A DNA stretch of 64,000 nt from Closterium sp. NIES-65 (Eukaryota; Streptophyta; Zygnematophyceae; Desmidiales; Closteriaceae), in contig CANXME010000532.1 of NCBI GenBank assembly GCA_948144175.1, positions 5,001 to 69,000 on the forward strand. Direction: 5' to 3'. The notes below the pieces were generated by a model. It saw only the letters and a list, made by a program, of their open reading frames with translations. It was not told the origin of the DNA and did no database searches. The position numbers and the translations under genes were made by a program. Position 1 is the first letter of the stretch. Every line of letters begins with the position of its first letter. Of the stretch, positions 4,581 through 22,438 are shown piece by piece.

Positions 4581-6511
4581 GGCTGCGGCTGCTGCTGCTG
4601 CTGCGGCTGCTGCTGCGGCGCACGCGGGCCAGTGTGAAGAGTGTAGAGACCCGAGCCCGGCTCAGCAGTAAAGGTAGCAAGAGGCTGGTAAGAGTCTCCG
4701 TCAACACACACCGCAGTCTCTCCAGAAGGCTCAAACCACACACCCACGTGATGACTCACGAGGGGTCGCACGCCCACCAAGTTCCGGGAGAACGAGGGGA
4801 CGTGAAACCCAGTGAGAGACCCGGAGGGAGCAGCAGGACACGGTAAAGTGGTAGTGTGACGTGCAGTGACTGGTCCCGTAGTGGGATCAGCCAACGCTAC
4901 AGAAACAGGCGCAGGAAGTGGTGTAAGTGTCGTGCTGTCCCGAAAGAAGCAGTGGGAGGCTCCAGAGTCCAGTGTGAACGACAGCGAAGCGTCCTCTGAG
5001 GTAGTCGCTGGTCTAGAGTCTACACAAGTACCTACACTAGCAACAGGCAACTGAGCAAGACTAGCACCTAAGCTAACAACACCAGAGTAAACAGAGTCAG
5101 AAACACTAGAGTCAACAACAGCATACATAGCATGAGGAGCACTAATCAGATCAACTAACTGCTCAGCAGACATGCCCCACAGAGCGGAGCCGTAGCGCTG
5201 AACCAGAGGAAGCCAGTCAGGAGCAGGACCGCCAACCCCGTAGGTCAACCGGACCGTGTCAGTGAGCTGAGCAAAGCACTGACCAGGGGGGTGAAAGCGG
5301 CCACAAGGGTGGCCCCGACGAGGACCTGTCTGAACTTGGTAGGGGCAGGGAGGGTAAGCAGCACCGCGCTGGGGCTGACGCAGCCCCGACCCCGGAGCCA
5401 GCTGCTGACGCTGCTGCTGCTGAGGCTGCTGGGAGGAAAGGGGCTGCTGCTGCTGCTGAAGGTGCTGCTGACGCTGAGCCTGGTACCACACCGCTGCTCC
5501 ACCTAGCGGGGCCGGCAGTACAGGAGGCGACTGACGAGCTCGAGGGTCGCCGCCACCAGCAGGTGCAGTGGAGTCACCAGCCGCTGCACGAGGGGTCTCT
5601 CCAGACGCTGCACTCCCACCACCGCCAGTCGCAACAGCACCCCCACTACCTCCGCTACCTCCGCCTCCACCTCCACCGGAACCACCTTTCTTGCCCCCCC
5701 TGCCGCGGGACCGCGACGCAGTCGTAACAGCAGCCGCAGTCGCGTCAGTAGCGGCAGTGGCAAGAGAGGCAGTGAAGGTGGGTAACTGCGGGACTGTGCA
5801 CCCGTGGAAGAGTGGGGGGGACACAGTACCAGAGGCGGCAGCTACCGAACGAAGGTTGCTCTCGACGTCCTTGAGTGCAGACTCAAGGACCTCGATAGTC
5901 AGCTCACTAGGGTGCTTCAGCAGAAGCGCGTCACGAACGGAGGCAAGGCGGTCAGGGAGGCTAGTGGCGATGAAATAGACAGTAATCGCCATGGGGGGAG
6001 GAAGCAGTGCAAGCTGTGCCTCAGTGCAAGCAGCGCGGTAACTAGCGTCGAGCGAGCGGAGGTGAGCGATCAAGTCAGCAGAGCGCTCAAACGAGGCAAG
6101 ATCAGGAAACAGGAACGGGAGGAAAAGACGGCCGAGAGAGACAGTAGCGGGAGTAGAGTAGCGGGCCTTAATCGCAGTGAGGTACGCAGCAGCGGTGCGA
6201 ACCTCAGTAAAGTGGACCTCCTCAGACTCAGGGAGGAGGCTGCTGAGTGCGATGCAGGCCGCAGCGTCACGCGACGTCCAAGCCGTCCGGTCAGCGCGCT
6301 GTCGGGCAAAGCGAGCCGTAGCAGCGTCGTCAGGAGCAGGGCCTAAAGCGGTAGGCTCGGGGGGCTCGGGGAGGTCACCAGTAGCGTGTGACTAGAAGGT
6401 CTCGCCCCCCTGGACCTGACTCTCTAACAGACGACGAGCGCGAAGAAGCCAGACGGAAAAGTCAAGGGGTCTACCGTCAGCGTCGAAACGAAGAACTCGC
6501 GGAGTCGCCAT
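446..6511 (-). CDS. Copia gag-pol polyprotein of element A, one in-frame stop
   Basis: One reading frame from ATG 6511 to the stop at 446, interrupted only by TAG at 6392-6394, about 40 codons in. The part after the stop is open for about 1,980 codons. In order: gag helical region, Gly-rich linker, Gln/Pro-rich tracts, a zinc-knuckle-like motif C-x13-C-x3-H-x4-C (about 5340-5270), the protease motif LDSGAS (about 4970), a long CAG-encoded Gln tract (4530-4580), integrase HH...CxxC and DDE core (SDRGGEF, SPQQNG), a Pro/Gly linker, RT with YVDD (about 1415) and RNase H with TEAEI. The product would make virus-like particles and then copy and integrate the element. The stop could be a recent mutation, or could be read through; the sequence does not decide. 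Confidence 0.9.
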
Positions 6512-6574
6512 AGTGAGAACCAACGCGAACGAACAGGCGAGTAACAACCGGGGGGGAAGAGGACTCAGTCGCAC

Positions 6575-7240
6575 CGGAAGAGCGGGCTAGGGCGACGGGC
6601 CAAGACGTAGGGTAGGGCAACGGGCCAGGGCCTAGGGTAGGGCGACGGGCCAGAGCCTAGGGAGGGCGACGGGCCAGGGCCTAGGGAGGGCGACGGGCCA
6701 GGGCCTAGGGAGGGCGACGGGCTAGGGCCTAGGGAGGGCGACGGGCCAGGGCCTAGGGAGGGCAACGCGACGGGGGAAAGGGCGGGAGCGACGCGACGGG
6801 GCAGGGCGACGCGACGGGACAGGGCGACGCGACGGGGCAGGGCGGCGCGACGGAGCAGGGCGACGGGACAGGGCAGGGCGACGCGACGGGGTAGGGCGAC
6901 GCGACGGGACAGGGCGACGGGACAGGGCAGGGCGACGCGACGGGACAGGGCGACGGGACGGGGGGGGAACAGGCGGGCGCGACGCGACGGGGGGAACAGG
7001 CGCGACGCGACGGGGGGGAACGGGCGCGACGCGACGGGGGGAACGGGCGCGACGCGACGGGGGGAACGGGCGCGACGCGACGGGGGGAACGGGCGCGACG
7101 CGACGGGGGGGAACGGGCGTGACGCGACGGGGGAGATGGCGCTAGGCTCGGTACTAGGCGCGGTAACAACGAAACTGGTACGAACGAGAGGTAGGATCAG
7201 GCTCGGGAGGTACGAACGGAGAACGGAGGAACGGGATCCC
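6575..7240 (-). repeat. GC-rich minisatellite leader of element A
   Basis: Between the primer site and gag lie degenerate tandem repeats. Units of about 24 bp with a GGGCCAGGGCCTAGG core occupy 6580-6770, GCGACGGGRCAGGGC units 6775-6960, and units of about 25 bp with GACGCGACGGGG 6966-7135. It is stop-poor in several frames because of composition, so the open frames here are not taken as coding. Confidence 0.85.
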
Positions 7241-7252
7241 ACAGGATCCTAA

Positions 7253-7266
7253 CCTAGCTGATACCA
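7253..7266 (-). promoter_or_regulatory. Primer binding site of element A
   Basis: On the minus strand TGGTATCAGCTAGG directly follows the 5' LTR. TGGTATC is the usual start of a Copia primer site complementary to the 3' end of initiator-Met tRNA; the match weakens after about 9 bases. Confidence 0.7.
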
Positions 7267-7376
7267 TGTCAGAATGAGGAATGGATGTTGCATTGATGTT
7301 GGTTGGGGTACATATGACAAACCCTAACTTCTGTACCCCCTAAGACAAACCTCACTACAGGCTACAACATTTGACA
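7267..7376 (-). repeat. 5' LTR of element A
   Basis: 110 bp, read as identical to 128-237, with TG...CA ends, followed by the gcaca duplication. Confidence 0.95.
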
Positions 7377-7466
7377 GCACACACACACACACACACATAC
7401 ACACACACACACTCACACACACACACACACATACACACACATACATATATATTTATATATATACTT
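7377..7466. repeat. CA microsatellite and AT-rich flank
   Basis: CA repeats with occasional T, then a TA-rich stretch that abuts the left end of the DIRS-order element N1. Confidence 0.85.
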
Positions 7467-7553
7467 ATTGTGAAAGCTTGCTTAGTCCATCTTGCAAAGG
7501 CAGCGTGCTTCATTCCAAGTGGCAAAGGCAGCGTGCTTCATTCCAAGTGGGTA
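7467..7553 (-). repeat. Repeat B2 of N1
   Basis: Matches B1 at 7782-7839, from ATTGTGAAAGCTTGC through CATTCCAAGTGG, but with the last 28 bp or so duplicated inside B2. Confidence 0.85.
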
Positions 7554-7589
7554 ATACAACGTTCTCGTTCATAAATGATACACAATGGG

Positions 7590-7781
7590 GTGGGTGGTGG
7601 GAAAGTAAACTAGAAAAGTTGGAAATGAAGAACGTGGGTGAAGGCGACTGAACCCACGTCCCTCTTTTGTAGGCAAAAGAGGGGTGAGTAGCGTCGAGCC
7701 GCTACCTTTGCTTTGCTGGCCACGTCCTCGCTTTCACAATACGAAATTTGAAAAAGTGTTACACTTTTAAAAATTATAATA
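7590..7781 (-). repeat. Repeat A2 of N1
   Basis: Nearly identical to A1 at 13074-13236 (shared from GGAAAGTAAACTAG to GAAATTTGAAAAAG) and to the A1 remainder at about 19150-19183. Confidence 0.88.
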
Positions 7782-7839
7782 TTGTGAAAGCTTGCTTAGT
7801 CCATCTTGCAAAGGCAGCGTGCTTCATTCCAAGTGGGTC
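7782..7839 (-). repeat. Repeat B1 of N1
   Basis: About 58 bp shared with B2. It overlaps the 3' end of the recombinase frame, so the end of the protein is encoded in the repeat. Confidence 0.82.
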
Positions 7840-8894
7840 TTCTGAGGCAAGTGCATTTTGGGTCGGCGGTGCCTCTCCGACGATTGCTGGTGCCGACCAG
7901 GCGACGGGGCTGCAGAGGTGTCCTGCAGCCGGGTGGAGAGGTCGATGAGTTGGTCTTGGGCGATGGTGACGTAGAGATCCTTCGCACCGTCGCTGCGCCA
8001 TCGCCCCATTCGTTTGAAGAGCCGGTCAGGGATGCCTAACGCCGCTGCTGCTGTTGCCGCGCCCTTGCGGAATGAGTGTGTCCCGATGTGTGTGGCGTCG
8101 AGCCCTGCCTTCTTGCACGCCTCGAGGCACCAGCTCCGAATGGTTGGGTATGAAGGCGATTTGTCGTGCGGCGAGGCCTGTGCCCTTTTGTTGAAAACCC
8201 GAATCAGTGGCCCGTGAGGCATGTTTGCAAGGCCTGCGATGCGAATGAACTCCCGTGTGCATCTCACTGCGCAGTAGGGCCCTGGTGACGCTGCGACCGG
8301 AATCCACGTGCCCTTGCCTTCTTGGTCCGTCTTAGAGTAGGGAATCAGTAGCCACATTGCCTCCCCTTCGAACTGAATGTCGTTCCATTGGAGGGAGATC
8401 AGGTCGGAGTAGCGCAGGAATGCCGCGAACATCAAGAGAGGTATCAAGCCTTTCTGATATTCCGCCGGCACTGTTGATTCCAGGAATGGTCGTGCCATGT
8501 TGTGCACTTGATGTAGTGACACGGGTTCCTTGGTCCTTGTTGGGCGTAGGCCATGTCGCTTAGCGAACTCTCGTACTTGCAGCGTGAACGGGCCGTTCGT
8601 TGGGGATGCCTCTCCGGTCATTCGATGGGCGAAGGCTACGGCAGAGCATGTGAGGTTGATCGCTGACGTTGTTGCCTTGTTGTTCAACGCATGGACTAGG
8701 TAGAGTGCCAGCGTGAGGTCCGTCGCTGGCAGAAAAGCTAGCTTGACTCGGGTGCAAAAGTTGCGAAATTTGAGCCAGTAAGGCTGGTATGTCTCGATCG
8801 TAGACGGTGCGCGAACATCATTTATAACTTGTAACAGTTGGTTTTGAAGCTGGGTCAATAATCCTGAAAGAATTAACACTCGAATATTAGTCAC
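7824..8894 (-). CDS. Tyrosine recombinase of N1
   Basis: About 356 codons. The N-terminal half resembles a core-binding SAM-like domain (STIETYQPYWLKFRNFC). The C-terminal half holds the catalytic set: Arg in the FLRYSDL region, HSFRKGAA (HxxR), GRWRSD and the nucleophile Tyr in KDLYVT. It would join the circular cDNA to the chromosome. There is no ATG near the start: the frame opens over the RT stop codon, and a TGACTAAT motif followed by a CAG (about 8860) suggests expression from a spliced RNA. The frame appears intact. Confidence 0.85.
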   Translation of the reverse strand: MTNIRVLILSGLLTQLQNQLLQVINDVRAPSTIETYQPYWLKFRNFCTRVKLAFLPATDLTLALYLVHALNNKATTSAINLTCSAVAFAHRMTGEASPTNGPFTLQVREFAKRHGLRPTRTKEPVSLHQVHNMARPFLESTVPAEYQKGLIPLLMFAAFLRYSDLISLQWNDIQFEGEAMWLLIPYSKTDQEGKGTWIPVAASPGPYCAVRCTREFIRIAGLANMPHGPLIRVFNKRAQASPHDKSPSYPTIRSWCLEACKKAGLDATHIGTHSFRKGAATAAAALGIPDRLFKRMGRWRSDGAKDLYVTIAQDQLIDLSTRLQDTSAAPSPGRHQQSSERHRRPKMHLPQKTHLE

Positions 8895-10944
8895 GTATGA
8901 TATTTTACATGCAAGGCAATTATTGGGCTATGGGGTAGGCCTAGTCCGGAAAATGCTGTTGCATGCGAACCAGGTCGAAGGCACTGGCTGCCTTGAGCGA
9001 GTGGCAAGCATGCGATCACTTCTGGGGCCCATGTCTCTGGGGAGGGTTGTAGCAACGGCCACCATGCTGCTCCCGGCCACTTGGGGACGACGAGTGTCAA
9101 CTCGGCTTGTGTGCGCCTGGCGTGAGAGAGTGTGGCTGGGATCAAGCCGGGGGGCGGAAAGGTGAAGCACCGCTCGCCTTTCCACGAGATCGAGAACGCG
9201 TCAATTGCTGTGGCACTTGGGTGCGGTATCTTGGAGCAGAATCGTTGCAGCCTCCTGTTGCTAATGTTCGCGAAAAGGTCGATCGTATGGGGGCCCCATC
9301 GACGTTCCAGTAGGCGAAACCATGGCATGTGCAGCGAGTAGTCGTCATGGTCTTGGAGTTTTGACAGTTCGTCCGCGTGGGCGTTGAGCTCCCTTGGGAT
9401 CCATTCGATTGCCAGACGTGTATGGTTCTTGAGGCAAAACTGTATGACTGCTTGACAAGTCAGTGTGAGCCGAGGTTGACTGGACCCCCCTTTGCGCAAG
9501 ATAAACATGACTCCTTGGTTGTCCACGCGAACCAAAACGTGGCCGCCTGTGAGATGGGACGCAAATGTCTGTAGCGCCCAGAGGACACCCTCGAGCTCCC
9601 TTTGAGTGCTTGAGGTTGGGAGGAGCTCGCTCGGCATGCTGGCGCTTGCTTCGTACGACGCGTCGGTAAACTTGGTGAGGGTGGCGCCCCAGTTGTGAGC
9701 GCTCGCGTCGACGTGGATCACAGCATCGAATTGATGGCTTAGGTGAAATGGGGCACCGTTAAACTGGTCGAAGTGCAGTTGCCAGAAGATTAGCTCCTCG
9801 ATGGCGGCCCGTGTCAGCCCGATCCTTGAGTTCCAGGATGCGGCTGTCTCGATCAATTGTAGCAGCTCGTGGCTGAAGGCGCGTGCTGCTGTGCCCAATG
9901 CGAGGGACATAGAGCTCAACATTCCGGTGATACGAGCGACTTCCCGAATTGGAGCTTGCTGGCCGCGTTGCCCCTTGGAGATGAGTGTGTGCAGCTTGTC
10001 GAGGAACTGCGCTCGCCGATCGGAGCCGATGCTAAACATGCCGCATGTCGTGTCCAGCTCCATCCCCAGAAATCGTGTTTGATGGGCCGGCTGGAGGCGT
10101 GATTTCTTTTCGTTGATCACGAAACCTGCCGCCCCGAGGTCTCGGAGAACCTCTGTGCATGTCTTGCGTGCGTGCTCCGCCGAGTCGCAGAGGAATAGCA
10201 GGTCGTCCACATATGGGACTACGCGCACGCCCCGCGCCCGCCAGCGTTTGGCCAATTGCTTGATCAACTGGGTGAAGACGAAAGGTGCTGTCGCCAGTCC
10301 AAACGGCAAGGCTCGGAAGCAGTAGAACTCGCCTTCGAATTGGAAGCCTAGGAACTTCCAGCACGAAGGGTGCATCTCGACATGGTGGTAGCCCGATTTT
10401 AGGTCAATGGTGAACAGTGTGAAGTAAAGAAAACAGGAATGAAATGACTAAGGAAAGATTGGGTACAAATACAACCCTAGAAACCCTGTACCCCATATGT
10501 GCTACCCCACTATAGCCTACAGCAACTATGTCATATAAATCTGACAAACAGCCAGTCGTTGCGTCGAATGATCTCCGAAACGCGATTCAGGCCCTCGTAT
10601 TTGAATTTAGTGACTTGGAGGTGTTGGTTGACCTTGCGTAGGTCGAGGATGAGGCGACATTTGTCGCGTTGTTCTACCACGTTGAGTGGGCTCACGCACG
10701 AGAGCGCAGTCCGCGAGGCGACCTTGGTTGCCGCGCCCGATGTGATTAAGTCGCGAATGGCCTCACGAGTGAACGTGGTGTGTGCATGAACACCCGCGTG
10801 GTTTGTGGTTTCGAAGGGTGGCGGTTCCGTAGTTTTCCAAGGCAGCCAATATCCCCTGGCAATAATAGAGATGATAAAACTGCTGTCGCACCACGATATC
10901 CACCAATGCAGTTGGTTACGCAATCGGTTGCGCATGACCTTCAC
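8891..10944 (-). pseudogene. RT-RNase H of N1, split by a solo LTR
   Basis: Two same-sense pieces, 10944-10552 and 10412-8891, join after removing the insert at 10418-10546 and one copy of its 5-bp duplication. Motifs include LNVVEQ...RLILDLRKVN, IDLKSGYHH at the break, LPFGLATAPF, YVDDLLF, and RNase H (HVDASAHNWGATL, RVDNQGV, ELNAHADELSK). The C-terminal extension (WGPHTIDLFAN) is shared with N2. The frame stays open upstream of 10944 without a clear start. Confidence 0.85.
10418..10546 (-). mobile_element. Solo Copia LTR inside N1 RT
   Basis: 129 bp with TG...CA ends, flanked by aacag on both sides (10413-10417 and 10547-10551). It resembles the LTRs of element B1. It lies in minus orientation and is left from an element that lost its body by LTR-LTR recombination. 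Confidence 0.93.
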
Positions 10945-11158
10945 TGTGTCATCTGTGACCGCGTTCTCGTATGGGTCCCATTCCGCCTCTCGCCACTTGT
11001 CGTCCGCTACTGCGCGTGGGGCAACCGGGGTGTGGTGTATTGGGTGATTAGCCTTTGCCCGTAGGACCAGCCCGGGGGCTTATGCATACTCGGTGCTACG
11101 CCTTCCGTCTCTCCTTGTATCCTCCCTCCTCTAGTCTTCCTTTCTCCATGTTTCTTGC

Positions 11159-11163
11159 TCTCA

Positions 11164-11214
<51 letters not shown>

Positions 11215-11400
11215 TCTCTCTCGCTCTCACTCTCTCGCTCTCGCTCTCTCTCTCTCGCTCTTGCTCTCTCTCGCTCTCTCTCGCTCTCTTTCCCTCCCTC
11301 TCCCTCTCTCTCTCTCTCTTTCTCTCTCTCCCTTTCTTTTCCTTGCGTTCTCTCTCTCTCTCTCTCGCTCGCTCTCTCGTTCTCTTGCTCACTCCTCTTC
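11159..11400. repeat. TC-rich microsatellite in the gag-RT spacer of N1
   Basis: Long imperfect CT runs with a short CA tract. A pure TC run sits at the same place in N2. Confidence 0.9.
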
Positions 11401-11580
11401 CGATCTTTCCATTTGCTCTTCTTCTCGAACTCTGCCCCGTATTCGCACGTTTTCCTTCCATCTCGTTTTCTTCCTCTTTCCTTCGTACTCTTCCCTTCAA
11501 GTCAGGGGGGCGCTTGGGCTGGAATGGCTGCCTTGGCTTTACTTCCTTCTCTCCCACTTTGTTTGGTTGCATGTGTGGGT

Positions 11581-11581
<1 letters not shown>

Positions 11582-11612
<31 letters not shown>

Positions 11613-11635
11613 AAAACCAGAGGCAAACTTTTATT
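11582..11635 (-). terminator. Poly(A) signal and A30 tract after N1 gag
   Basis: On the minus strand AATAAA (11630-11635) is followed 18 nt later by 30 consecutive A (11611-11582). This is the layout of a cleaved and polyadenylated mRNA end, yet it lies between gag and RT of one element. Confidence 0.7.
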
Positions 11636-11800
11636 ACCACACATGGGTACATAGCATGTACTGCCCCCATAGCTACCCTTATGGCTAGGGATTTCTAAAG
11701 CCTCCAGCCCATACTCCCTGCTAGCTACCAGCCATGCACCCTCGGTGCTCCACCTACGCCCCCCGGCATAGTGGCAAGGGGCTCCACCCCGTGTGCCTCC

Positions 11801-12988
11801 TCACACGACGGGTGAGGGGCCTTGAGCGCCCCGCCCTCCCATAGGGCAAGCATTTGCCATATGGCCGGGCTGGCCGCACCGGAAGCACACCCCTTTGAAG
11901 CGGGGCTCGTGGCAGCTTGCGGGAGGCATGCCCTTGCCTTCCGTGTCGCCATCTCGGGTAGGCATGCGATTACCGCGAGTGTAGCCGGCGCGTGCACGCT
12001 TGAGAGCTGCCACATCCGCAACGGCGAGCTTGTAAGAGCGGGAGGTTAACACGCTCTTGGACTGGTATAGCTGAAAACGATCGGCAGCCTCGAACCCCGC
12101 CTCGTCCGCCACCAAGAGGACTTCGAAGCGCTTGTGGATGAGCGTTTCGATTTCCGCAACGTTGGCGAGTGCGCTTTCGATGTCGCCGTGCTGGAGCTTG
12201 AAATTGACGTGCTTCAGGTGTGCCTGGATAGCAGAGAAAACCTCCGCCTGATCGCGCACGCCCTTGCGCATGAAGGTGGTAGGTGCGGGTGTGGGGTTGA
12301 GGGGTGGAAGAGAAGGTGCTGGTGCAATAACGCGACGACGGGTGATGTTATTGGGGGCCTCACCATCATCGTTGTCTGAGTCGTCGCTGTCGGCTTGAGC
12401 GGCGATTGGTGCCGGTACGGGAGCGGGAAGAGGTGCGGCAGTGGTCTCGTTGACGCGAGCAGCCTTGTTTGCGCGGGGAGCGTTGACTTCTTTCTGATTT
12501 TCGATTTTTGCAGGTGCATAATTATAGTCGGAGGAAGTTGCGATTGTTACTGGGGCTTGCTGCTGTAACATCGAAAGCAGTGCCTGCATCTGCTGCGCAG
12601 TGAGGGACGCGAGGGGGTTGACTGGGGCGGCTTCTGCTGGGGTCGCTGCCTTCAGTCGCTTCTGCAGGGTGGGCCCCGGCTGACCAGCGTCGCCGTCCGC
12701 GTCAGCCGGCGTTGACTTGACTGGCGCGCGCGGCTGCCTGGCGGCCACACGCTCGTCAGCAGGAGGCACGCGCGACTGTTTCACAGCCGCGCGTGCTTCT
12801 TCGGAGGGGGCTCGAGAGTTGCTCCCGAGCAACACTTCGACTCCTGAAGTGCCCTCGCCGAAATTGTCTTCGGCAGGGCGTTTTCCGCGGCGGTCGGTTG
12901 CCCCGGGCGCGTTCGCGTGCTCCGAAGCGTTTCCGGGGTTGTTGGTCTTTTCCGCCTCTCGATTAAGTGCAGTGTTGGCGTGAGCCAT
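11801..12988 (-). CDS. Gag of N1 with CCHC zinc knuckle
   Basis: 395 codons from ATG 12988. The N-terminal half is Ala/Pro/charged and probably disordered; around residue 175 a Gln-rich helix (QQMQALLSMLQQQ) follows; residues of about 245-345 form a helical block conserved with N2; and a classical knuckle CFRCGQPGHMANAC (C-x2-C-x4-H-x4-C) is near the C-terminus, which ends GPSPVV as GPAPVV does in N2. It would bind element RNA and assemble particles. The frame is intact. Confidence 0.82.
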   Translation of the reverse strand: MAHANTALNREAEKTNNPGNASEHANAPGATDRRGKRPAEDNFGEGTSGVEVLLGSNSRAPSEEARAAVKQSRVPPADERVAARQPRAPVKSTPADADGDAGQPGPTLQKRLKAATPAEAAPVNPLASLTAQQMQALLSMLQQQAPVTIATSSDYNYAPAKIENQKEVNAPRANKAARVNETTAAPLPAPVPAPIAAQADSDDSDNDDGEAPNNITRRRVIAPAPSLPPLNPTPAPTTFMRKGVRDQAEVFSAIQAHLKHVNFKLQHGDIESALANVAEIETLIHKRFEVLLVADEAGFEAADRFQLYQSKSVLTSRSYKLAVADVAALKRARAGYTRGNRMPTRDGDTEGKGMPPASCHEPRFKGVCFRCGQPGHMANACPMGGRGAQGPSPVV

Positions 12989-13073
12989 ATTCGCCAGGTT
13001 GTGTTGGAGAATGTCTGTGAGAAGGGTCGACGGGGACTTGAACCTCGGGAGAGATTGCGTCTTCGCCAGGATG

Positions 13074-13236
13074 AACGAGAACTAGGAAAGTAAACTAGAA
13101 AAGTTGGAAATGAAGAACGTGGGTGAAGGCGACTGAACCCACGTCCCTCTTTTGTAGGCAAAAGAGGGGTGAGCAGCGTCGAGCCGCTACCTTTGCTTTG
13201 CTGGCCACGTCCTCGCTTTCACAATACGAAATTTGA
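13074..13236 (-). repeat. Repeat A1 of N1 (main part)
   Basis: Matches A2 (7590-7781) up to GAAATTTGAAAAAG, where N2 begins. The remainder appears at 19150-19183. Confidence 0.87.
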
Positions 13237-13404
13237 AAAAGCTTGCTTTCTTGTCCTTATAATTTGGCATCGTTCTCATTGCAACTGGCTTATTACAACA
13301 TATGCATCGTTCGTAAACACATGCTAGTACATGCAAATATTACTAGCTATGGAGTCGTCCGTCCAAGCAGCTGTGGTCTTGTAGTTGGTCCGGGGTGGGT
13401 GGTG
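13237..13404 (-). repeat. Repeat B2 of N2
   Basis: Its first 55 bp or so (CTTGCTTTCTTGTCC...GCAACTGG) repeat B1 at 13598-13650. It ends at GGGTGGGTGGTGGG, which also marks the B2/A2 boundary in N1. Confidence 0.82.
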
Positions 13405-13591
13405 GGGATGTTGATTGAGCCGTTGGAAAACGAGAAACGTGGGTGGAGGGAATGAACTCCAACCCACGGTTTTTGTAGTTGGAGAAGGGCGTTTAGCGCG
13501 CTTCGACGCTGCCAAATATTCGGTACAGTCAGCTTCGCTTTCACAATACACAATTTTGAAAAACATCAATGTGTTTAAAAATTATAATATT
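13405..13591 (-). repeat. Repeat A2 of N2
   Basis: Almost identical to A1 at 18968-19150, from ATGTTGATTGAGCCG to GTTTAAAAATTATAAT. Confidence 0.9.
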
Positions 13592-13650
13592 GAGAAAGCT
13601 TGCTTTCTTGTCCTTATAATTTGGCATCGTTCTCATTGCAACTGGGGCCT
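13592..13650 (-). repeat. Repeat B1 of N2
   Basis: Shares about 55 bp with B2 and overlaps the 3' end of the recombinase gene. Confidence 0.82.
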
Positions 13651-14681
13651 CTGAGACATGGCCAGTGGTGGCTTGCGGTTGCGTAAGAGTGCCTCTGCGT
13701 GCTGTTCTGGGGGCAGCGCGTATGTCGGGTCCTGTAGGTCGCGGGATGCCTTGATAAGATGTCCGACGTATGGTGTGACGTACATCTCTTTGGCGGTGTC
13801 ACTTCGCCACCTGCCATCCTTTTGAAGATTCTGTCCGGCACGCCGATGTTGGCGGCTACGGTTGCCGCGCCCTTTCGGAAGGAGTGCGTGCCGAGCTGCT
13901 GCTCCCCAAGTCCTACTTTGGCGAATGCTTCTTTACACCAGTTTCGGATCGTTGTGTACGAGGGTGGCTTGGCCTGGCCCTTGTTGGCTGAAGCGTGGCT
14001 GAAAACGCGAATCAACGACCCCTCGGAATGAGGGCCATAGCCAGCGAGTTGGAGGAAGCGTTGGGTGCAGCGCACGGGGCAACAAGGGTCCGTCGTTGCG
14101 GCGATGGGAATCCAGGTTCCACGACCAGCCTGGTCCGTTTTTGAGTGTGGGATGAGGATCCACATGACTGCATCGTCGAATTGGATGTCTTGCCACTGGA
14201 TGGCAACGAGGTCGGAGTATCGCAAAAATCCGGAGTACATGAGGATAGGGATCAACCCCTTCTGAAATTCAGCGGGATTGTCCGACTGCAAGTAGTTCGC
14301 GGACATGTCCCGAACTTGTTGGATTGATACGGGCTCCTTCAAACGACTAGGGCGAGGGCAGTGTCGTTTCGCGTAGTCCCGCACTTGGGTGGTAAACGGT
14401 CCGACAGTCGGGCATTTGCTTCCAGTCATGCGATGGGCGAAGCTGACTGCCGAGCACGTGAGGTGCACTACAGACAAGGTTGCTTTGCGTTGGATTGCAT
14501 GCACCAAGTATAGCGCGAGGGTCATGTCGGATGCGGGAAGAAATGGAAGATCCACCTTTGTGCAGAAGGCCCGAAACTTGGCCCAGTACGGTTCGTATGT
14601 ACGGATTGTCGAATTCGCTCGCGATTGTGTGAGCATGTTGATGAGTTGGTTGTGTAGCTTTGGGAGCGGATCTGGACACAA
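13614..14681 (-). pseudogene. Tyrosine recombinase of N2, frameshifted before the catalytic Tyr
   Basis: About 355 codons, homologous to the N1 recombinase over the core-binding domain and HSFRKGAA. Near 13817 a G is missing on the coding strand compared with N1 (GRWRSD region), so the frame leaves homology just before the Tyr nucleophile; the correct residues continue in another frame to about 13640. As read, the protein lacks its nucleophile. The start has no ATG; a TGACTAAT motif and a CAG precede the homologous frame, as in N1. Confidence 0.83.
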
Positions 14682-14698
14682 GGCGCGTACATTCTCAA

Positions 14699-16792
14699 TT
14701 AGTCAAAAACCACCCGAAGTGCGATGATTGGGCTGTGTGGTAATCCAGTGCCTGAAAAAGCAGCGGAATGTGTTCCAGCTGCCAGGCATTGGCTGCCGTG
14801 TGTCAAGGGAATGTGCGCGTGGATGTACGGTGCCCAGTTGCGTGGGGAAGGTTGTAAAAGTGGCCACCAGTTTGCACCCGGCCAGTGTGGGATGATCAAT
14901 GTGAGCGATGCACGGGTGCGCTGTGCGTGATGGAGGACGGCCGGAACTAAATGGGGCGGGGGGAACGCAAAGCTATTTTCTGATGTCCATGCGAGCGAGA
15001 ATGCATCGACTGCGGTGGCTTGTGGATGAGGAATTTTAGTGCAGAAGCGTGGCAGCTGGGAGTTGCGGGAGTTTGCAAAGAGGTCGATGGAATGGGGACC
15101 CCAACGCCGTTCTAAGATGCGGAACCACGGCGTCTTCAACGAGTAGTCGTCATGATCGACTGCTTTTGAGAGCTCATCGGCGTGTGAGTTTAGCTCCCGT
15201 GGGATCCATTCGATGATTAGACGCGTGCCGTGCTCCATGCATAGTCGAATGATGTCTTGGCAGGCCGTGGTAAGGTCGGGGCTGCGCGAGCCACCTTTGC
15301 GAAGGATGAAGAAGACGCCCTGATTGTCCACCCGCACAAGAACATGTTTGTGCGTGATCTTGCTGGAGTATGTTTGGAGTGCCCAAAGCACACCTTCGAT
15401 CTCCCTCCGTGTGCTGGACGTCGCTCGCAGCGGCTCTGGCATTGTTGCGCTAGCTTCTTCGAGGCCGCCAGGAAATGTGGTCAAAGTGGCGCCCCAACTG
15501 TGAGCGCTAGCATCCACATGGATGACAGCGTCGTAGCTGTTTCGAACGTGAAACGGTGCACCGTTGAACCTGTCAAACTCTTCGAGCCAGAAGTTTAGCT
15601 CCTCAGCCGCGTTTGGGGGGATGATCACGCTGCTTTTCCATGAAGGTGCGTCATTGATCACTTGTAGCATGGCGTGGCTGAAAGCACGAGCTGTTGCGCC
15701 CAGCGCGACGCCCATTGACGCGAGCATGCCTGTGATTCTGGCCACTTGGCGGACTGAGACGGGTCGACATGCCTTGCTTGCGCTCAACAGGTTCCGAATG
15801 GTTGCATGTAGTGAGGCTCGTCGTTCGGGACCGATGGTAAATCGGCCTGTGGCCGTGTCTAGCTCCACACCCAAGAATCGAAGGTGTTGCGATGGTGACA
15901 GCTGTGATTTCTTCGCATTTATCACCAAACCTGCTGCTTTAAGGTCCAGTATTACACGGTGGCAAGTAGCCTGCGCGTGAGCTTTTGACTGGCAAAGGAA
16001 TAAGATGTCGTCCACGTATGGTACTACTCGGATGCCTTGCTCCCGCCAGCGACGGGCTAGCTGCTTGATGAGTTGCGTGAAGATGAATGGGGCTGTCGCA
16101 AGACCGAACGGCAATGAACGAAAGGAGTAAGTGCGCCCATCGAATCCAAAACCGAGAAACTTCCAGCATGAAGGATGGATATCGATGTGATGGTACCCGG
16201 ATTTGAGATCAATAGAAAACATCCAATCCCCAGCGCGTGCCACGTCTGCCACACGGCTGAGTCCTTCGTACTTGAATTTTGGGACGATGAGGTTTGTGTT
16301 GACTTTTCTCAGGTCGAGGATGAGCCTGCATTTTTCTTTCTGCTCGACCACGTTAAGTGGGCTTATGCACGTAAGCTCGCTTGCGGCTGTCTCGACTGCA
16401 GCTCCGGTCTCTGTGAGTTCTTGGATGGCAGTACGTGTGAACGACGCATGCGCGTATGCACCAGCGTGGTTACGCTCCCGAAAGGCCTGTGGTGGGCCGT
16501 GGCTCCATGGAAGCCAGTAACCGTTGGCGATGATGGATAGGACGAGGCTGCAAGGGCACCATGAGCTCCACCACGCAAAGGTCGAGCGAAGCCGACCGCA
16601 CATCCGTGTGACGGTTTTGTCCGTGACGGCAAATTCGTACGGGCCATCGTCGCGAGGCACCTCGTATTGTTGTGCTCCTGTATGTACGGCAAGGAAATGA
16701 ACGCGAACAATCAGGTTGCACGCCTTAATTAGTTCATGCGTGTGACATATACATGCATGCGCGAAAAATGAACCGTCAACAGTGAGGACCAT
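14699..16792 (-). CDS. RT-RNase H of N2
   Basis: 697 codons from ATG 16792, uninterrupted. RT motifs: LNVVEQKEKCRLILDLRKVN, IDLKSGYHHIDIHP, LPFGLATAPF, YVDDILF (about residue 270). RNase H: HVDASAHSWGATL, the Glu-bearing RREIEGVLWALQ, RVDNQGVFF and ELNSHADELSK. The last 150 residues (WGPHSIDLFAN...) are shared with N1. It copies element RNA and degrades the hybrid strand. It stops 17 nt before the recombinase frame opens. Confidence 0.92.
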   Translation of the reverse strand: MVLTVDGSFFAHACICHTHELIKACNLIVRVHFLAVHTGAQQYEVPRDDGPYEFAVTDKTVTRMCGRLRSTFAWWSSWCPCSLVLSIIANGYWLPWSHGPPQAFRERNHAGAYAHASFTRTAIQELTETGAAVETAASELTCISPLNVVEQKEKCRLILDLRKVNTNLIVPKFKYEGLSRVADVARAGDWMFSIDLKSGYHHIDIHPSCWKFLGFGFDGRTYSFRSLPFGLATAPFIFTQLIKQLARRWREQGIRVVPYVDDILFLCQSKAHAQATCHRVILDLKAAGLVINAKKSQLSPSQHLRFLGVELDTATGRFTIGPERRASLHATIRNLLSASKACRPVSVRQVARITGMLASMGVALGATARAFSHAMLQVINDAPSWKSSVIIPPNAAEELNFWLEEFDRFNGAPFHVRNSYDAVIHVDASAHSWGATLTTFPGGLEEASATMPEPLRATSSTRREIEGVLWALQTYSSKITHKHVLVRVDNQGVFFILRKGGSRSPDLTTACQDIIRLCMEHGTRLIIEWIPRELNSHADELSKAVDHDDYSLKTPWFRILERRWGPHSIDLFANSRNSQLPRFCTKIPHPQATAVDAFSLAWTSENSFAFPPPHLVPAVLHHAQRTRASLTLIIPHWPGANWWPLLQPSPRNWAPYIHAHIPLTHGSQCLAAGTHSAAFSGTGLPHSPIIALRVVFD

Positions 16793-16938
16793 ACGGACGG
16801 TTTGTCGTCATTCCATATAGGGCGTCCGATCGCACCTTGGCAAACTCTTTCTCATACTCTCTCCTTTTCCCTCCCCTCGTTTTTTTTTTTTTTTTTCTGG
16901 AGGATTGATGCTTGGGACCATGATCATGCTTCCCTCGT

Positions 16939-16940
16939 GT

Positions 16941-17019
<79 letters not shown>

Positions 17020-17020
17020 C
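16939..17020. repeat. TC dinucleotide run in the gag-RT spacer of N2
   Basis: About 40 near-perfect TC units, at the place of the CT-rich tract in N1. Confidence 0.93.
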
Positions 17021-17283
17021 TTTCTCTCTCCCTCTCTTTTTGGATGTGTTTCCATTGTTGTTTGAGCATTTGCATGCTTCGCTTGTCATGAGCTCGTGTC
17101 TTTTCGCGCGTGCCTTTACTTGGGCTAGGCGACATCGCTATGCCCTACTCCCCCCCCCTTGCTCCTTCTCACCCTTTTTGGGCTTCCAACGGTTGAACCA
17201 GGGCTGCTCATCCTTGCCATGCATGGTGGCGGTTGAGTGAGGAGCGTACGTACTCTCTTTTTCTCCCTCTCCCCTTCTCCTCC

Positions 17284-17336
17284 TTTTTTTTTTTTTTTTT
17301 TTTTTTAATCCGTGACAAACAAGAGGGGCCTTTAAT
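17284..17336 (-). terminator. Poly(A) signal and A23 tract after N2 gag
   Basis: On the minus strand ATTAAA (17331-17336) is followed 24 nt later by 23 A (17306-17284), paralleling N1. Confidence 0.65.
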
Positions 17337-17411
17337 AAAATCCCTATCTCTCATGGTCATACATTGTCATGCCTACTAGCATGTTTCTCATCCCATCAAT
17401 TGGGGCATACG

Positions 17412-17550
17412 GGGGACCGAGAGGCATTCTTCCTCTTCCCCAAAGCTAGACCTACGGCCATACTTTATTACCCTATCCTAGGGGACCGAGAGGCATTCTT
17501 CCTCTTCCCCAAAGCTAGGCCTATGGCCAACTTCTACCACCCTATCCTAG
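17412..17550 (-). repeat. Tandem duplication of about 69 bp in the N2 gag 3' region
   Basis: Two adjacent copies starting GGGGACCGAGAGGCATTC, at 17412-17480 and 17481-17550, with a few differences. Confidence 0.88.
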
Positions 17551-17655
17551 GGCTGGCCATGGCCACCGCAAGCCCTACTAGGCTGCCCACGGTCTAAGCA
17601 CTCAAAAGTGCACCGTGCATCGCGCCTAGAGGCGCGCTTCACCATAGCCCGAACC

Positions 17656-18855
17656 TTACACAACCGGTGCGGGTCCTTGGCCCCCATGCCCATTCCGAGG
17701 GCAGGCATTGGCGACGTGGCCTGGCTGTCCGCAGCGGAAACACGAACCACGAAAGCCTTGGAAGTTGCCCGAGGTTGGAGGGCCACGTTTTGGGGCGAAC
17801 GCCTTGGCGCCGTGGTTTCCACCACGGTGGGAGCGAGCGTGAGCGCCCGCCGCTCGGTCCATGGCAGCCACGTCCGCGACGGCTTGCTTGAACGGCCGCG
17901 AGGTGAGAAGGCTTTTCTCCAGGTACATCTTGTAGCGCTTGGCAACGCGGTCGTCGGATGCGTCTTCGACTTGAAACATGTCGAAGCGCGCGGAAATGTC
18001 GTCGAGGGCGGCGACGACCATTTCGAGTCCGCCCGCCGAGTCGCCGTGCTGCAGCTTGTGCTCTGCGTGTTTCAGGTAGGCCCGCATGTCCTCCAGAATC
18101 TCCGCTTTCGCCCGCACGTGCTCGTCGTTGAACGTCGCCGCCGACCAAGTGGTGTTAGTAGTAGAGGGGAGGGGGGGAAGATGCTCCATGGAATGAAAAT
18201 TTGCGGTATGGACCGGAGCCTCACCATCATCGTCGTCGGAGCCGTCGGTGTCGTTGTCGGCCGCTGGCGCAGGTGGGATGCTGGCTGGTGCTTCCTTGTT
18301 GTGCCGGTTCGCCGTTGTTCCTCGCGCTCCTTTTTCTTTTTTTGCGTTTTCCTTGTTAGCAGATGCAGACGCCGCGGGTTGTGCAATTTCCGTAGCTGTA
18401 ACGCTGGCGGGTTGTTGCTGTAACAGGGACAGAAGCGCAGCGACCTGGTCCGGAGTCAACGCGTTGGTCAACGCCGGGGTCGTCGCGTCAGAAGAAGTCG
18501 ATGTTCGGCGCCTCTGGCGCTGACGCGACGGTCCAGCCACAGGCGCCGGCGTGTGCTCCGCGTCAGGCGCGTGTGGCACCCCAGGTGCTGCAGGTGCCGC
18601 CGTCGCCACTTGCGCCACACGCGCCTCAGGCGCCACAGGCGCCACAGGGGCCGAGGGGTGCTGCTGCTGGGGCGGGCTCGAGTTTTTGTTGACCTCGAGC
18701 CCGCCCAACAGCACGTCCACGGCAGTTGGGGCGGGCGATCCTTCCTCTGCCCGCCGCTTGTTACGGCGATCGCCCGTCATTTCTCGGGCGTTACGGTCGG
18801 AGTCGGAAACCGGCGCAGACGAATTGACGCGGTTAAGTGCCGGCGTAGACGCCAT
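17656..18855 (-). CDS. Gag of N2 with CCHC zinc knuckle
   Basis: 399 codons from ATG 18855. Ala/Pro-rich disordered N-terminus, the helix LTPDQVAALLSLLQQQ, an acidic patch (DGSDDDDGEAP), a conserved helical block, and CFRCGQPGHVANAC near the end. Organised as in N1 but diverged outside the helical block and knuckle. Frame intact. Confidence 0.82.
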   Translation of the reverse strand: MASTPALNRVNSSAPVSDSDRNAREMTGDRRNKRRAEEGSPAPTAVDVLLGGLEVNKNSSPPQQQHPSAPVAPVAPEARVAQVATAAPAAPGVPHAPDAEHTPAPVAGPSRQRQRRRTSTSSDATTPALTNALTPDQVAALLSLLQQQPASVTATEIAQPAASASANKENAKKEKGARGTTANRHNKEAPASIPPAPAADNDTDGSDDDDGEAPVHTANFHSMEHLPPLPSTTNTTWSAATFNDEHVRAKAEILEDMRAYLKHAEHKLQHGDSAGGLEMVVAALDDISARFDMFQVEDASDDRVAKRYKMYLEKSLLTSRPFKQAVADVAAMDRAAGAHARSHRGGNHGAKAFAPKRGPPTSGNFQGFRGSCFRCGQPGHVANACPRNGHGGQGPAPVV

Positions 18856-18967
18856 TGTAGATCGATTGTGGTTGAAAATGTCTTGCAGAAGTGTTGAGGG
18901 TGACTCGCCTCTGGGAAGGGTGCGAGTTCTAGCCAGCTTGGACGGGGAAAAGAACTACTCGAACGGA

Positions 18968-19150
18968 AATGTTGATTGAGCCGTTGGAAAACGAGAAACG
19001 TGGGTGGAGGGAATGAACTCCAACCCACGGTTTTTGTAGTTGGAGAAGGGCGTTTAGCGCGCTTCGACGCTGCCAAATATTCGGTACAGTCAGCTTCGCT
19101 TTCACAATACACAATTTTGAAAAACATCAATGTGTTTAAAAATTATAATT
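18968..19150 (-). repeat. Repeat A1 of N2 (5' terminus)
   Basis: Matches A2 at 13405-13591. Beyond it lies the broken-off end of N1 A1 (TTTGAAAAAGTGTTACAC...). Confidence 0.9.
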
Positions 19151-19183
19151 TTGAAAAAGTGTTACACTTTTAAAAATTATAAT

Positions 19184-19470
19184 GTGTGCTCTTGAATTGG
19201 TCTTAATGGTCGTTTTCATGTGCTCACATATTGTGTGGTGACATTGTGATCAATCCTAAATTCGACTTATTGACTGGTACTGTGACCACTTGTTTACTTT
19301 GCTTGTTTACATTCCCCTCTCTTAGCCTATGGGGGTGTGTCAAGCTATGCTATGTAGTTTAACTACTGGCAGACTGTAGTGGATTGGTTCCTAGGGGGTA
19401 CACAAATTTTCTCGATAGTTTTCTTGTAGCGTTCCTCCTTCACCCTACTCAACAATTCTCTCTAACTACT
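19184..19470 (+). mobile_element. Decayed Copia 3' end with LTR remnant
   Basis: 19184-19337 aligns by eye with the 3' untranslated region of the Copia group (TGTGGTGACATTGTGATC..., CCTATGGGGGTG), and an LTR begins at about 19338 with TGTCAAG. The right end is unclear, about 19470. N1 inserted at its left edge. Confidence 0.6.
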
Positions 19471-19671
19471 TAACTTGATTTCTACACACCTGCACCTACA
19501 ACCAGGGTATAGCAGTAGTAGGAACTCTGGTGGTGACCATATGATTCTAAAAGCCACTCACAGCTCACAAAATCCGAGTAAAGTTATGTGATGTGATAAC
19601 AACGTTCAGTACATCCCCTAAGGGTTGATATTAGACAAGCATGCTAGTACCGTAGGCCAGAGCCTACTGGA

Positions 19672-20985
19672 TTACAGTGGAGTCAGGCCAACCACACCTG
19701 GAAACATGCAAAATGTGTTGTAGGAATAATTATGGAGCATAAAGCAGAGATCAAGTACACGAGATACTGAAAAGGTAAACTCACCGCAGGCAAGACGACC
19801 ACCAGCGTTTCCAGTGGTGCTGCTCAGCTCGTGTCCACCTGAACAGCAAAGCAAAAGTTGGGAAGCAGGAGTATATTGGTAGCCCATTCAGAAGCCCTGC
19901 TGGAACAAAATCAGACAGCTTCCGCCTTCGTAAGTATCGTGGATGTATGAAAAGACTCACCCTTCCCAAGATCGTCCTCTCCTTCGTGGATGACTAAGGC
20001 GCGTCCCACAACAGAGTTGGGTCCAGAAAGAGGAATCTGCACTTGGGAGATGTGAAACGCTTGATAATAAATGAACTTTGAGCCGAGCGGGTACGGCAGT
20101 GCTTCAAATGCATAACGTAGGTGTGCTCCGAGACAAGAACACACATATCCGCGAGACAAACCTGTGAATCAACTATGGTCACTTCAGCCACACCCTCAGC
20201 GTTGGCTACGACATTGCCGAGGTCACCGGCATGGCGAACCTCGTCACCAGGAGCACCGTGCGTCAAGCCCTTGGGGTTGAAGTGAGGGCCTGTTACGATC
20301 ACAATGGGTTTACAGGTGACGTCACTTCATGTAACAGTGTCGAAATCCACGATAGAAAAACCTAAAAAGGTACAGAAAGCATGGCATCCGCCCCGGAATA
20401 ACTCACCTGTCGACATGCAGCCGTTGGTGGTGTCACCAAACTCGTGCTGCACACAATTTGAGGTAAATGGTGTCAGTGCAAATAACGGGATCACGTGGGG
20501 GAAATGCGCCACCTGACAATACTGCGTACCAAGTGGAAACCGTGGTTGCCGGGAGCCAGTCCAGTAATCTTGAGAGTGACGGTAGTGGGGCCTGCGTGCA
20601 GAAAGTATGTAGCGTCAGATGTGCGCCTTCATGACAACCCGATGCTGACGTACACAAATGCTTAGACATCATTACCGTCATCCTCTTGAAGCAGACTAAC
20701 GACACCCTCGACTCCAGCAGTGCCCTTCAGAACGGCGACAGCCTTCTTTGACACTGCCATCACCTGGACATAAAAGAAAACAACTTAATTTGGATAAACT
20801 TCCTGGTTGCGTGATCTACAGGCACGAGTCAAAACCGTAAATAGCGGGCGTACCTTGAAAGACGCAGGCCTCCTGACAGCGGGAGCAACGGACACCACCC
20901 GGATAGCCTGGTTAGAGAACTTATTGAGGCTTGGTGCACCGATGAAAGAGGACCTGAGAGTCATGGAGGTCGCGGCAACAGCCAT
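19672..20985 (-). CDS. CSD2: Chloroplast Cu/Zn superoxide dismutase, eight exons
   Basis: Exons (minus): 20985-20854, 20763-20676, 20591-20530, 20446-20407, 20289-20162, 20036-19961, 19838-19785, 19697-19672. All seven introns (83-125 bp) start GT and end AG, and the joined frame encodes 201 residues. Residues 1-44 are Ser/Arg/Ala-rich, like a plastid transit peptide. The rest is the SOD fold: copper ligands His93, His95, His110 and His167; zinc ligands His110, His118, His127 and Asp130; disulfide Cys104-Cys193; active-site Arg190. [10 protein letters not shown] and [10 protein letters not shown] are signatures of the plastid isoform. The enzyme converts superoxide to oxygen and hydrogen peroxide in the stroma. 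It appears intact and is the only clear host gene here. Confidence 0.95.
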
Positions 20986-21184
20986 GGCTGAGAAGCTAGG
21001 CCTCCAAGAGGTCAGTCAGGGGTTGGGCGAACAAATTGAAAATCAGTGTCAACTGTGCTTGGCGGTTCAGAAATGTGACTGACTGAAGATGTTAAGGGGT
21101 AGAAGGGAAGAAGTATAGACATTCATTCATTGGTACCACGTGGCAGTATCTTAGAGTTGCTTGTGGATGTGCTGATCCCGATGA
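20986..21184 (-). promoter_or_regulatory. SOD 5' flank (promoter-proximal region)
   Basis: About 200 bp between the SOD start codon and the foldback element. It must hold the 5' UTR and core promoter unless these lie farther away. I see no convincing TATA box. Confidence 0.4.
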
Positions 21185-21192
21185 AGGAAAAC

Positions 21193-21358
21193 AGGGTTTT
21201 CAGCTTAGCGGGGACAGGTATCCCGACCCCTCCGCTTTCAGGGGATGGGTTTCGCAACCTGGGCACAGTTTTTGCAAAAGGCTGGGCTAAGGGGGGACAG
21301 TTATCCCTCAGGTAAGGGACTCGAGCTCTCAATGAGCCACGTGTCTTACTTTTCACAG
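21193..21358 (+). repeat. Left arm of foldback element
   Basis: Reverse complement of 21803-21967, beginning AGGGTTTTCAGCTTAGCGGGG. Confidence 0.88.
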
Positions 21359-21440
21359 AGAGCTTACTGTAGGTGTTCAATCACAGATTCCCTACTGCTC
21401 TGGCTTGTCGTTTCAGCCCAAAATAATTCACGCGGAAGAG

Positions 21441-21478
21441 TCGTTTAGCTAGCCCATTTGGGCGGCGGCGCTAAACGA
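21441..21478. repeat. Short hairpin in foldback centre
   Basis: GTCGTTTAGC near 21440-21449 pairs with GCTAAACGAC at 21469-21478. Confidence 0.7.
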
Positions 21479-21550
21479 CGCTACCGGGAACAATAAGGGC
21501 AAGGCATTAAAAATACCCCTAGGGAACCTGACGCATTTTTGGGAGGGATC

Positions 21551-21597
21551 AACCCTAAACACGGGAAAGGGCATTGATTTTAGGGTTGATGCCTCCC
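21551..21597. repeat. Hairpin in foldback centre
   Basis: A 19-nt arm GGGAGGGATCAACCCTAAA pairs with TTTAGGGTTGATGCCTCCC across a loop of about 10-20 nt, with one mismatch. Confidence 0.75.
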
Positions 21598-21802
21598 TGA
21601 GTCGCGTCTCCTCCGATTGGGATTAATTTTTTTCGGGTCAGGGGATGCAATATATATTCCCACATTTTCTCAGGGTGTCTGGTGCAATATACAGCTTTGG
21701 GAACAGCAGTTTGACTAGCCACCCCAAACGTGCGCTTGATTCGGTAGAAAAGACAAGCATGCGCAGTGCAGAATTTCTGATTGCATGTGTACAGTGATCG
21801 AG

Positions 21803-21967
21803 CTGTGAAGGATGAAAAACGTGGCTCATTGAGAGCTCGAGTCCCTCACCTGAATGATAACTGTCCCCCCCTAGCCCAGCCTTTTGCGGAAACTGTGCGC
21901 AGGTTGCGAAACCCGTCCCCTGAAAGCGGAGGGGTCGGGATACCTGTCCCCGCTAAGCTGAAAACCC
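21803..21967 (-). repeat. Right arm of foldback element
   Basis: Inverted copy of 21193-21358, ending GCTGAAAACCC. Confidence 0.88.
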
Positions 21968-21975
21968 AGGAAAAC

Positions 21976-22438
21976 ACGTCGAGCACACATGCTTGCTGAT
22001 CTGTTGAGCAGTCGAACTGCCACAAGGGATCGATCTATGTTCTGGAAACCGCCCAAGTTCAAAGAACTTGCCAGTTGTCCATGTCGGGCTGCGTCAATGT
22101 CCTCTCCTATTACAGATCTCACTCTTTCCTAGGGTTGCTTAACGTTAGACCACCGTATGTTAAAATCCTGCAATGCCACTCAGAGAAAAATCCAATTCCT
22201 TGCTTTGCGTCCAGCAGGTCCTCTAACAGGATTTTTGGCTCCTTATTATTGCTGCCAATCTCAGCCGACTCACCTGCGAATATTTGAGTATCGAGTATCC
22301 CCGCGTATTTTTTCTTGAATTATGATTTCAGCGGATACAATATTACCTGTCTTGTCGTTTATTCTTTTTTTTTTAATGTTGAGATAAATGAATTGAGAAT
22401 TACTGTGCATCCCTACCAGTAGCAAGTGAAGCGTGCAG
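21976..22438. other. Intergenic, no gene seen
   Basis: AT-rich unique sequence between the foldback element and B1. No coding signal or RNA gene recognised. Confidence 0.6.

Follow-up and report, generated by a model that had tools for sequence, protein, structure and literature searches.

The stretch of DNA analysed in this study (the window) comprises 64,000 nucleotides of contig CANXME010000532.1 from the streptophyte Closterium sp. NIES-65, and all coordinates are given in the sense of the window. It holds two nested retrotransposons with a tyrosine recombinase (YR) gene, N1 (7467-19183) and N2 (13232-19149), both on the minus strand. In coding order both read A1-gag(CCHC)-reverse transcriptase (RT)/RNase H (RH)/methyltransferase (MT)-like region-YR-B1-A2-B2, and N2 is seated within the A1 repeat of N1, which is split into two pieces. 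The A and B repeats were returned by an unguided repeat scan of 5000-22000 and then placed by direct reading. After removal of N2 the rejoined A1 of N1 equals its A2 at 180 of 181 positions; A1 and A2 of N2 are equal at 181 of 181. A first-pass annotation of this DNA had proposed both the layout and the nesting with rejoining halves, and both are borne out by repeat scan, reading and Pfam. Chance does not explain the layout: dozens of copies share the junctions, and copies that were fetched show it in full. The features are as follows (a slash marks a joint).

7467..7523, minus strand: N1 B2, the 3' terminal repeat in the coding sense; N1 left end in the window sense, /ATTGTGAAAG
7600..7780, minus strand: N1 A2 (repeat scan, repeat comparison)
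7781..7837, minus strand: N1 B1; A2 and B1 meet at TTATAAT/ATTGTG, an internal copy of the circle junction
7824..8927, minus strand: N1 YR frame, 367 amino acids (aa); Pfam Phage_integrase 2.8e-10; catalytic R, HSFR, W and Y present in the alignment
8891..10417, minus strand: N1 RT (3' part)/RH/MT-like frame; Pfam RVT_1, RVT_3; weak Dam match, E 0.11
10418..10546, no strand assigned: 129-bp element interrupting the N1 RT, best read as a solo long terminal repeat (LTR); TG..CA, target-site duplication (TSD) CTGTT
10547..11079, minus strand: N1 RT, 5' part; 58% identity to N2 RT over 144 aa
8891..11079, minus strand: N1 RT overall (interrupted)
11801..13081, minus strand: N1 gag, CCHC zinc knuckle; Pfam zf-CCHC 1.2e-6
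13085..13231, minus strand: N1 A1, left piece (repeat scan, direct reading)
13232..13288, minus strand: N2 B2; its first ten letters, TTTGAAAAAG, are the target's and replace the family's ATTGAGAAAG
13408..13588, minus strand: N2 A2 (repeat scan, repeat comparison)
13589..13645, minus strand: N2 B1; junction TTATAAT/ATTGAG
13614..14702, minus strand: N2 YR frame, shifted before the catalytic tyrosine in the window copy
14699..16807, minus strand: N2 RT/RH/MT-like frame, 702 aa, open; Pfam RVT_1 3.5e-23, RVT_3; weak Dam match, E 0.0072
17656..18954, minus strand: N2 gag, CCHC zinc knuckle; Pfam zf-CCHC 1.5e-5
18969..19149, minus strand: N2 A1; ends TTATAAT/; N2 right end, the same across the family
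19150..19183, minus strand: N1 A1, right piece; ends TTATAAT/; N1 right end

The ten letters TTTGAAAAAG are present at both edges of N2 (13232-13241 and 19150-19159) and once also in A2 of N1. In both families a short inverted repeat lies just inside the TTATAAT end of A (7740-7780 and 13545-13588; e.g. AAAAGTGTTACACTTTT), which may be a feature used by the recombinase or in priming.

Domains and layout support the assignment of N1 and N2 to the DIRS order, as first claimed: both encode RT, RH and a YR instead of a DDE integrase, and both carry split direct repeats. Pfam matches above cut-off were obtained in both elements for zf-CCHC (gag), RVT_1 and RVT_3 (RT frame) and Phage_integrase (YR). 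The sole Pfam match in the region after RH is, in both, Dam (PF05869), which lies below the cut-off. The catalytic R, HxxR and Y of the YR align between N1 and an N2-family copy. Because protein identity between N1 and N2 is 61% for YR (275 aa) and 58-65% for RT (144 and 506 aa), the two are different families. Relatives of the N2 RT frame among solved structures include Ty3. The best NCBIfam match of an N2-family YR is a XerA/integron-integrase model, at 36 bits against a cut-off of 220; a PDB sequence search with YR gave nothing convincing, and a scan of viral_contigs for relatives gave 27 pattern matches, none of them confirmed.

A putative MT domain defines the DIRS-group elements in the account of PMC4157794. 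By the features listed there, N1 and N2 can be described as having the layout of PAT-like DIRS elements, especially of the 'echinoderm-form' Pat1-like kind, which is a statement about layout and not about clade membership. Common to both are A1-B1-A2-B2 split direct repeats, a zinc-knuckle gag, RT/RH, a putative MT-like region (here a weak match, below cut-off), a YR in the same direction and internal repeats downstream of the YR, whereas the host, a streptophyte, differs (PMC4157794). Toc3 and Kangaroo of green algae share green hosts, split direct repeats and the DIRS group with N1 and N2; however, they are described in that account without the zinc finger, and Kangaroo has an inverted YR with internal repeats between MT and YR, whereas the YR of N1 and N2 is forward (PMC4157794). 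The A1-[ORFs]-B1A2B2 layout (ORF, open reading frame) is also that of Ngaro and Viper, which the relevant parts of PMC4157794 and PMC8547959 describe without an MT domain; the weak MT-like match of N1 and N2, although below cut-off, would speak against Ngaro. DIRS1-like elements are described with inverted terminal repeats (PMC3266345), whereas the repeats are direct and split in both N1 and N2, and neither shows inverted terminal repeats with an internal complementary region.

Neither window copy is whole. The RT of N1 holds the 129-bp TG..CA element, for which a solo Copia LTR is the best reading, since related stretches in the window (22451-22560 and 29837-29948) lie either side of Copia reading frames; further similar stretches occur near 7306-7369 and 167-230. 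An intron as the cause of the gap was rejected, given the TG..CA ends with a 5-bp TSD and the similar stretches elsewhere in the window. The YR frame of N2 is broken, so that the elements, first called complete, are complete in layout but not in coding. Another 19 copies of the N2 family were retrieved, each as a stretch of 8.9 kb. In 13 of them the whole element is covered, at 98.8-99.7% identity to the window N2; the tyrosine motif is in frame in 13/19, and all three frames are open by simple tests in 9/19 (two of the nine with common flanks). Four of the 19 (L054-L057) are older and broken.

The first-pass annotation had suggested searching the genome for other copies, and this search (874 Mb in 2400 contigs) returned N2-type junctions in at least 40 places (21 show full identity across 321 bp) and N1-type junctions in at least 27 near-full places, 7 of them identical (window copy counted in both). 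These counts are lower bounds, with 40 of 1396 first-look candidates scored for N2 and 40 of 846 for N1. A YR query gave 971 loose first-look candidates, of which 114 were scored and matched: 30 at 99-100%, 2 at 90% and 82 at 84-85% identity to the N2 family. The group of 82 rows therefore marks another DIRS family; 71 of the 82 have no stop, and this family outnumbers the N2 family among the scored rows. DIRS elements had been called uncommon in plants, which does not hold for this genome. A 2022 review, in the part that treats these elements, omits DIRS from land plants and gives green algae as the only finds until then (PMC9033089). Abundant DIRS elements are now documented in a streptophyte.

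The search for left ends took in the two window elements, 37 other copies of the N2 family and 8 of the N1 family. The left end /ATTGAGA was found in 34 of the 37 N2-family copies, and all nine N1-family left ends start with /ATTGTGAA (window N1 and 8/8 other copies read). Right ends read TTATAAT/ except in L040, L085, C1867 and C1358. Several rows were removed before the logo counts: L053 and L056, whose flanks repeat those of L052 and L055; the left ends of the window N2 and L012 and the right end of L040, all three of them odd; the right ends of C1358 and C1867; and those of L013 and L018, which the search pattern missed even though both read TTATAAT/. From L054 neither end was obtained. 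The end reading left out L026 and L027, and five more N2-type copies (L083-L087) contributed right ends only. This left 41 left rows (32 N2 and 9 N1 family), 42 right rows (35 and 7) and 34 two-ended sites, some of them within repeats, so that the flanks are not all unique. As the first annotation had expected, termini and insertion rule can be read from the nested pair and its relatives, in 41 left and 42 right ends. A direct repeat of at least 2 bp between the flanks occurs at 3 of the 34 two-ended sites (longest 3 bp), and shuffled pairings give 3.8/34. Since flank repeats are no commoner than in shuffled pairings, there is no target duplication, as expected of the DIRS order; the one exception is the window N2, which is put down to homology. 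Two N2-family copies on C2241, L012 and L011, lie in opposite directions with their left ends about 1.5 kb apart, one of them with an odd left end.

Empty sites could have placed the element ends elsewhere; as a test of this, the flanks of 32 insertions were joined and aligned to the window and to the long loci. Clear uninterrupted relatives were found for L013 (window 126-244, 98%), L045 (97%) and L021 (85%). Those of L029 and L043 are neighbouring tandem-repeat units, and agreement is weaker (about 74%) for L047 and L051. All seven relatives continue across the junction, with no letter gained or lost at the joint, in agreement with the called ends. The alignments of L015, L046 and L049 are too loose to be informative, L018 matched itself only, and no match across the joint was found in the window and long loci for the other 20 of the 32. 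The empty site of N2 itself is the unbroken A1 of N1, present in 8 other N1 copies. Insertion thus adds no target letters, and the well-aligned empty sites show none lost. The N2-family insertions L029, L043 and L047 lie in repeated units that serve as local empty sites.

The target reads AA-N6-NTT, an arrangement that parallels the circle junction, for which the internal B1/A2 copy gives AAT-TATAAT-ATT. Relative to flank composition, T is enriched at +2 (33/42, p 7e-12) and +3 (28/42, 1e-7), and A at -9 (24/41, 5e-5) and -8 (23/41, 2e-4). T stands at +2 or +3 in 39/42 targets, while the full ATT at +1 to +3 occurs in 7/42 only. The spacer differs from TATAAT at 4.17 of 6 positions, with 4.34 expected by chance. 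The target is therefore like the circle junction solely at two short inverted half-sites, AA (-9, -8) and TT (+2, +3), and the 6-bp spacer between them needs no homology to the circle. In an offset control on 32 joined-flank sites (including one duplicate, L053, and L040), the four-position score was 2.91 of 4 at the true junction. The other 80 offsets (-45 to +35) all scored lower, the highest being the two neighbours (2.28 and 2.22); the mean over all 81 offsets was 1.14 with a standard deviation of 0.32.

For DIRS1-like elements it was described that a 3-bp junction integrates at an identical genomic site, with terminal trinucleotides mostly of the NTT form (PMC3266345). N1 and N2 agree with these elements, as far as that description extends, in the absence of target duplication and in termini that are often NTT and mostly ATT. 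However, the DIRS1-like rule requires an identical 3-bp site, whereas the targets of N1 and N2 are a longer dyad with a free spacer. Start and end trinucleotides are unequal in several DIRS1-like elements too, which fits mismatch tolerance (PMC3266345). The new part is the insertion rule: for the N1 and N2 families a dyad with a free spacer replaces the rule of a 3-bp identical site. In the open-licence PMC literature no description was found of an AA-N6-NTT target or of the one-sided joint described below.

In window orientation the element reads ATT...TTATAAT, and its two junctions differ: left junctions hold the spacer of the target, right junctions the spacer of the circle. TATAAT occurs at none of the 41 left ends, and in 28/34 two-ended sites the left end is still ATT, although the target has other letters than ATT at +1 to +3. 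The family A-end word occurs 90 times genome-wide and continues into TATAAT in 89 cases, the sole exception being L040 on C2087. Of these 90 words, 34 belong to internal A2 (uninformative), 35 to terminal A1 and 21 to neither list; TATAAT stands at 34 of the 35 terminal A1 ends. Because left ends keep ATT and right ends TATAAT, the boundary is fixed at -1/+1 in nearly all copies.

The best explanation, with a probability of roughly 0.83, is that N1 and N2 represent two related PAT-like families, that N2 inserted in A1 of N1, and that insertion proceeded by half-site-guided strand exchange at one edge. The YR would bind two half-sites both in the target and in the complementary DNA (cDNA) circle, and strands would be exchanged at one spacer edge only, between -1 and +1. 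A second exchange, which requires spacer homology, would be absent or traceless. Known YRs cut 5' of the spacer; if this applies here, the exchanged strand would be the coding strand of the element. Replication or repair would then resolve the joint, comparable to the insertion of integron cassettes, where the YR joint arises by one strand exchange, is resolved by replication and needs no overlap homology; the likeness to N1 and N2 is one of outcome only. We infer one-strand exchange because two-strand exchange followed by replication should give both spacer orders half and half. It is tempting, though at somewhat less than even odds, to extend this to YR retrotransposons in general, which might integrate at AA-N6-NTT by a single strand exchange without spacer homology, perhaps starting from a cDNA circle that is nicked or single-stranded. 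If true, a single exchange would explain insertion almost anywhere without duplication, unlike the two-strand exchange of the textbooks, which takes place over an overlap of homologous sequence.

Several observations weigh against this interpretation. The left end is odd in L012, L041 and L054 lack B2, and the window N2 itself departs from the left-end rule. L040 and the old N1 copy C1358 end in TTATAA plus A, L085 ends in TTATGAT, the A-end of the old copy C1867 is changed, and a right end was looked for in L054-L057 and not found. The empty site of L045 differs at -1 (A filled, C empty), and the own empty site of N1 was not found; a 71% match only was obtained, which is weak and not counted as evidence. 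The A's of the half-site are only moderately enriched, with p values of about 0.008 and 0.03 once 160 tests are corrected for, and neighbouring offsets score well too, the motif being AA/TT. One-strand exchange is deduced from outcomes, with no intermediate seen. Finally, DIRS-1 was reported, in the relevant part of PMC5633606, to target its own copies without apparent sequence preference.

An alternative that we regard as unlikely, yet the strongest of those considered, is that both strands of a double-stranded circle are exchanged in the ordinary way across the 6-bp spacer. Mismatch repair with a strand bias, or unequal survival, would afterwards leave a single one of the two product orders to be observed. 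A dyad with a 6-bp spacer is the usual site layout of tyrosine recombinases. The model given in the review of DIRS-1 has a double-stranded circle, and circles were seen (PMC5633606). However, the left side would always have to be corrected to the target and the right side always to the circle (0/41 left ends against 34/35 terminal A1 with TATAAT), and unbiased replication of the two strands would yield both orders equally. Considerably less probable is that linear cDNA was bluntly joined at a blunt break by an end-joining enzyme, with the YR merely picking the site or inactive. In its favour, no duplication is seen, the joint needs no homology, and nothing is lost where empty sites align well, but end-joining usually trims or adds letters, and a target that copies the dyad of the circle junction around a 6-bp spacer points to a recombinase binding both. 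Recombination of two elements, homologous or unequal, is very improbable as the origin of the nest: the termini of N1 and N2 are similar, with TTTAAAAATTATAAT common to both, but the right end of N2 lies exactly where other copies end in unrelated flanks, A1 of N1 rejoins without loss, and the target letters around the joint are A at both -9 and -8, T at both +2 and +3. A tandem by homologous recombination was rejected. Least credible of all, and rejected as contradicted by the other sites of the family, is TTTGAAAAAG as a recombination core or an element-made 10-bp TSD, which its presence at both N2 edges and once in A2 of N1 might suggest, but against which stand a longest direct repeat of 3 bp, at chance level, in 34 other two-ended sites, the well-aligned empty sites without duplication and the target letters, which continue A1 of N1.

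Half-site-guided insertion leaves the two edges of N2 to be accounted for. The target inside N1 reads ACGAAA/TTTGAAAAAGTG, and the right end of N2 is regular, while its left end carries TTTGAAAAAG in place of the usual start. TTTGAAAAAG matches the latter in 8 of 10 letters; this similarity could let the joint migrate or be converted to the target letters, and therefore both edges of N2 could read alike. Hence TTTGAAAAAG at both edges is probably a special case of homology between target and element and not a core or a general duplication. Of the two readings first offered, core or chance homology, homology is the one that stands, as a homology between two related elements. In Dictyostelium, DIRS-1 is known to insert into other copies of itself (PMC5633606). 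Two other sites also involve related elements: the A1 end of L018 directly adjoins a related element at the left end of the latter, and L049 seems to be located within an N1-like repeat region (71% match).

DIRS-order integration is so far mostly a model. A 2017 review states, where it treats the DIRS cycle, that the proposed cycle is experimentally not fully proven, and counts among the steps still to come that new insertions of DIRS-1 be mapped (PMC5633606). Dozens of near-identical copies in Closterium make integration readable as data, and the one-sided joint bears on strand-exchange models. Just left of N1, the interval 6585-7133 is made up of GC-rich tandem arrays, with unit lengths near 24, 18 and 23 bp, beside a CA/TA microsatellite, and the remainder of the window from 22000 to 64000 holds mostly Copia-type frames with long proline/alanine/glycine-rich stretches, several of them broken. 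In the genome as a whole, Dirigent and LTP_2 gave no match, but since the control genomes gave none for them either, their absence does not follow. TTTAGGG telomere-type repeats gave 2820 matches (control 1), and 40 NAC-domain stretches were detected, with no control genome matched; given where these features usually occur, they suggest a streptophyte, and perhaps an alga more than a land plant.

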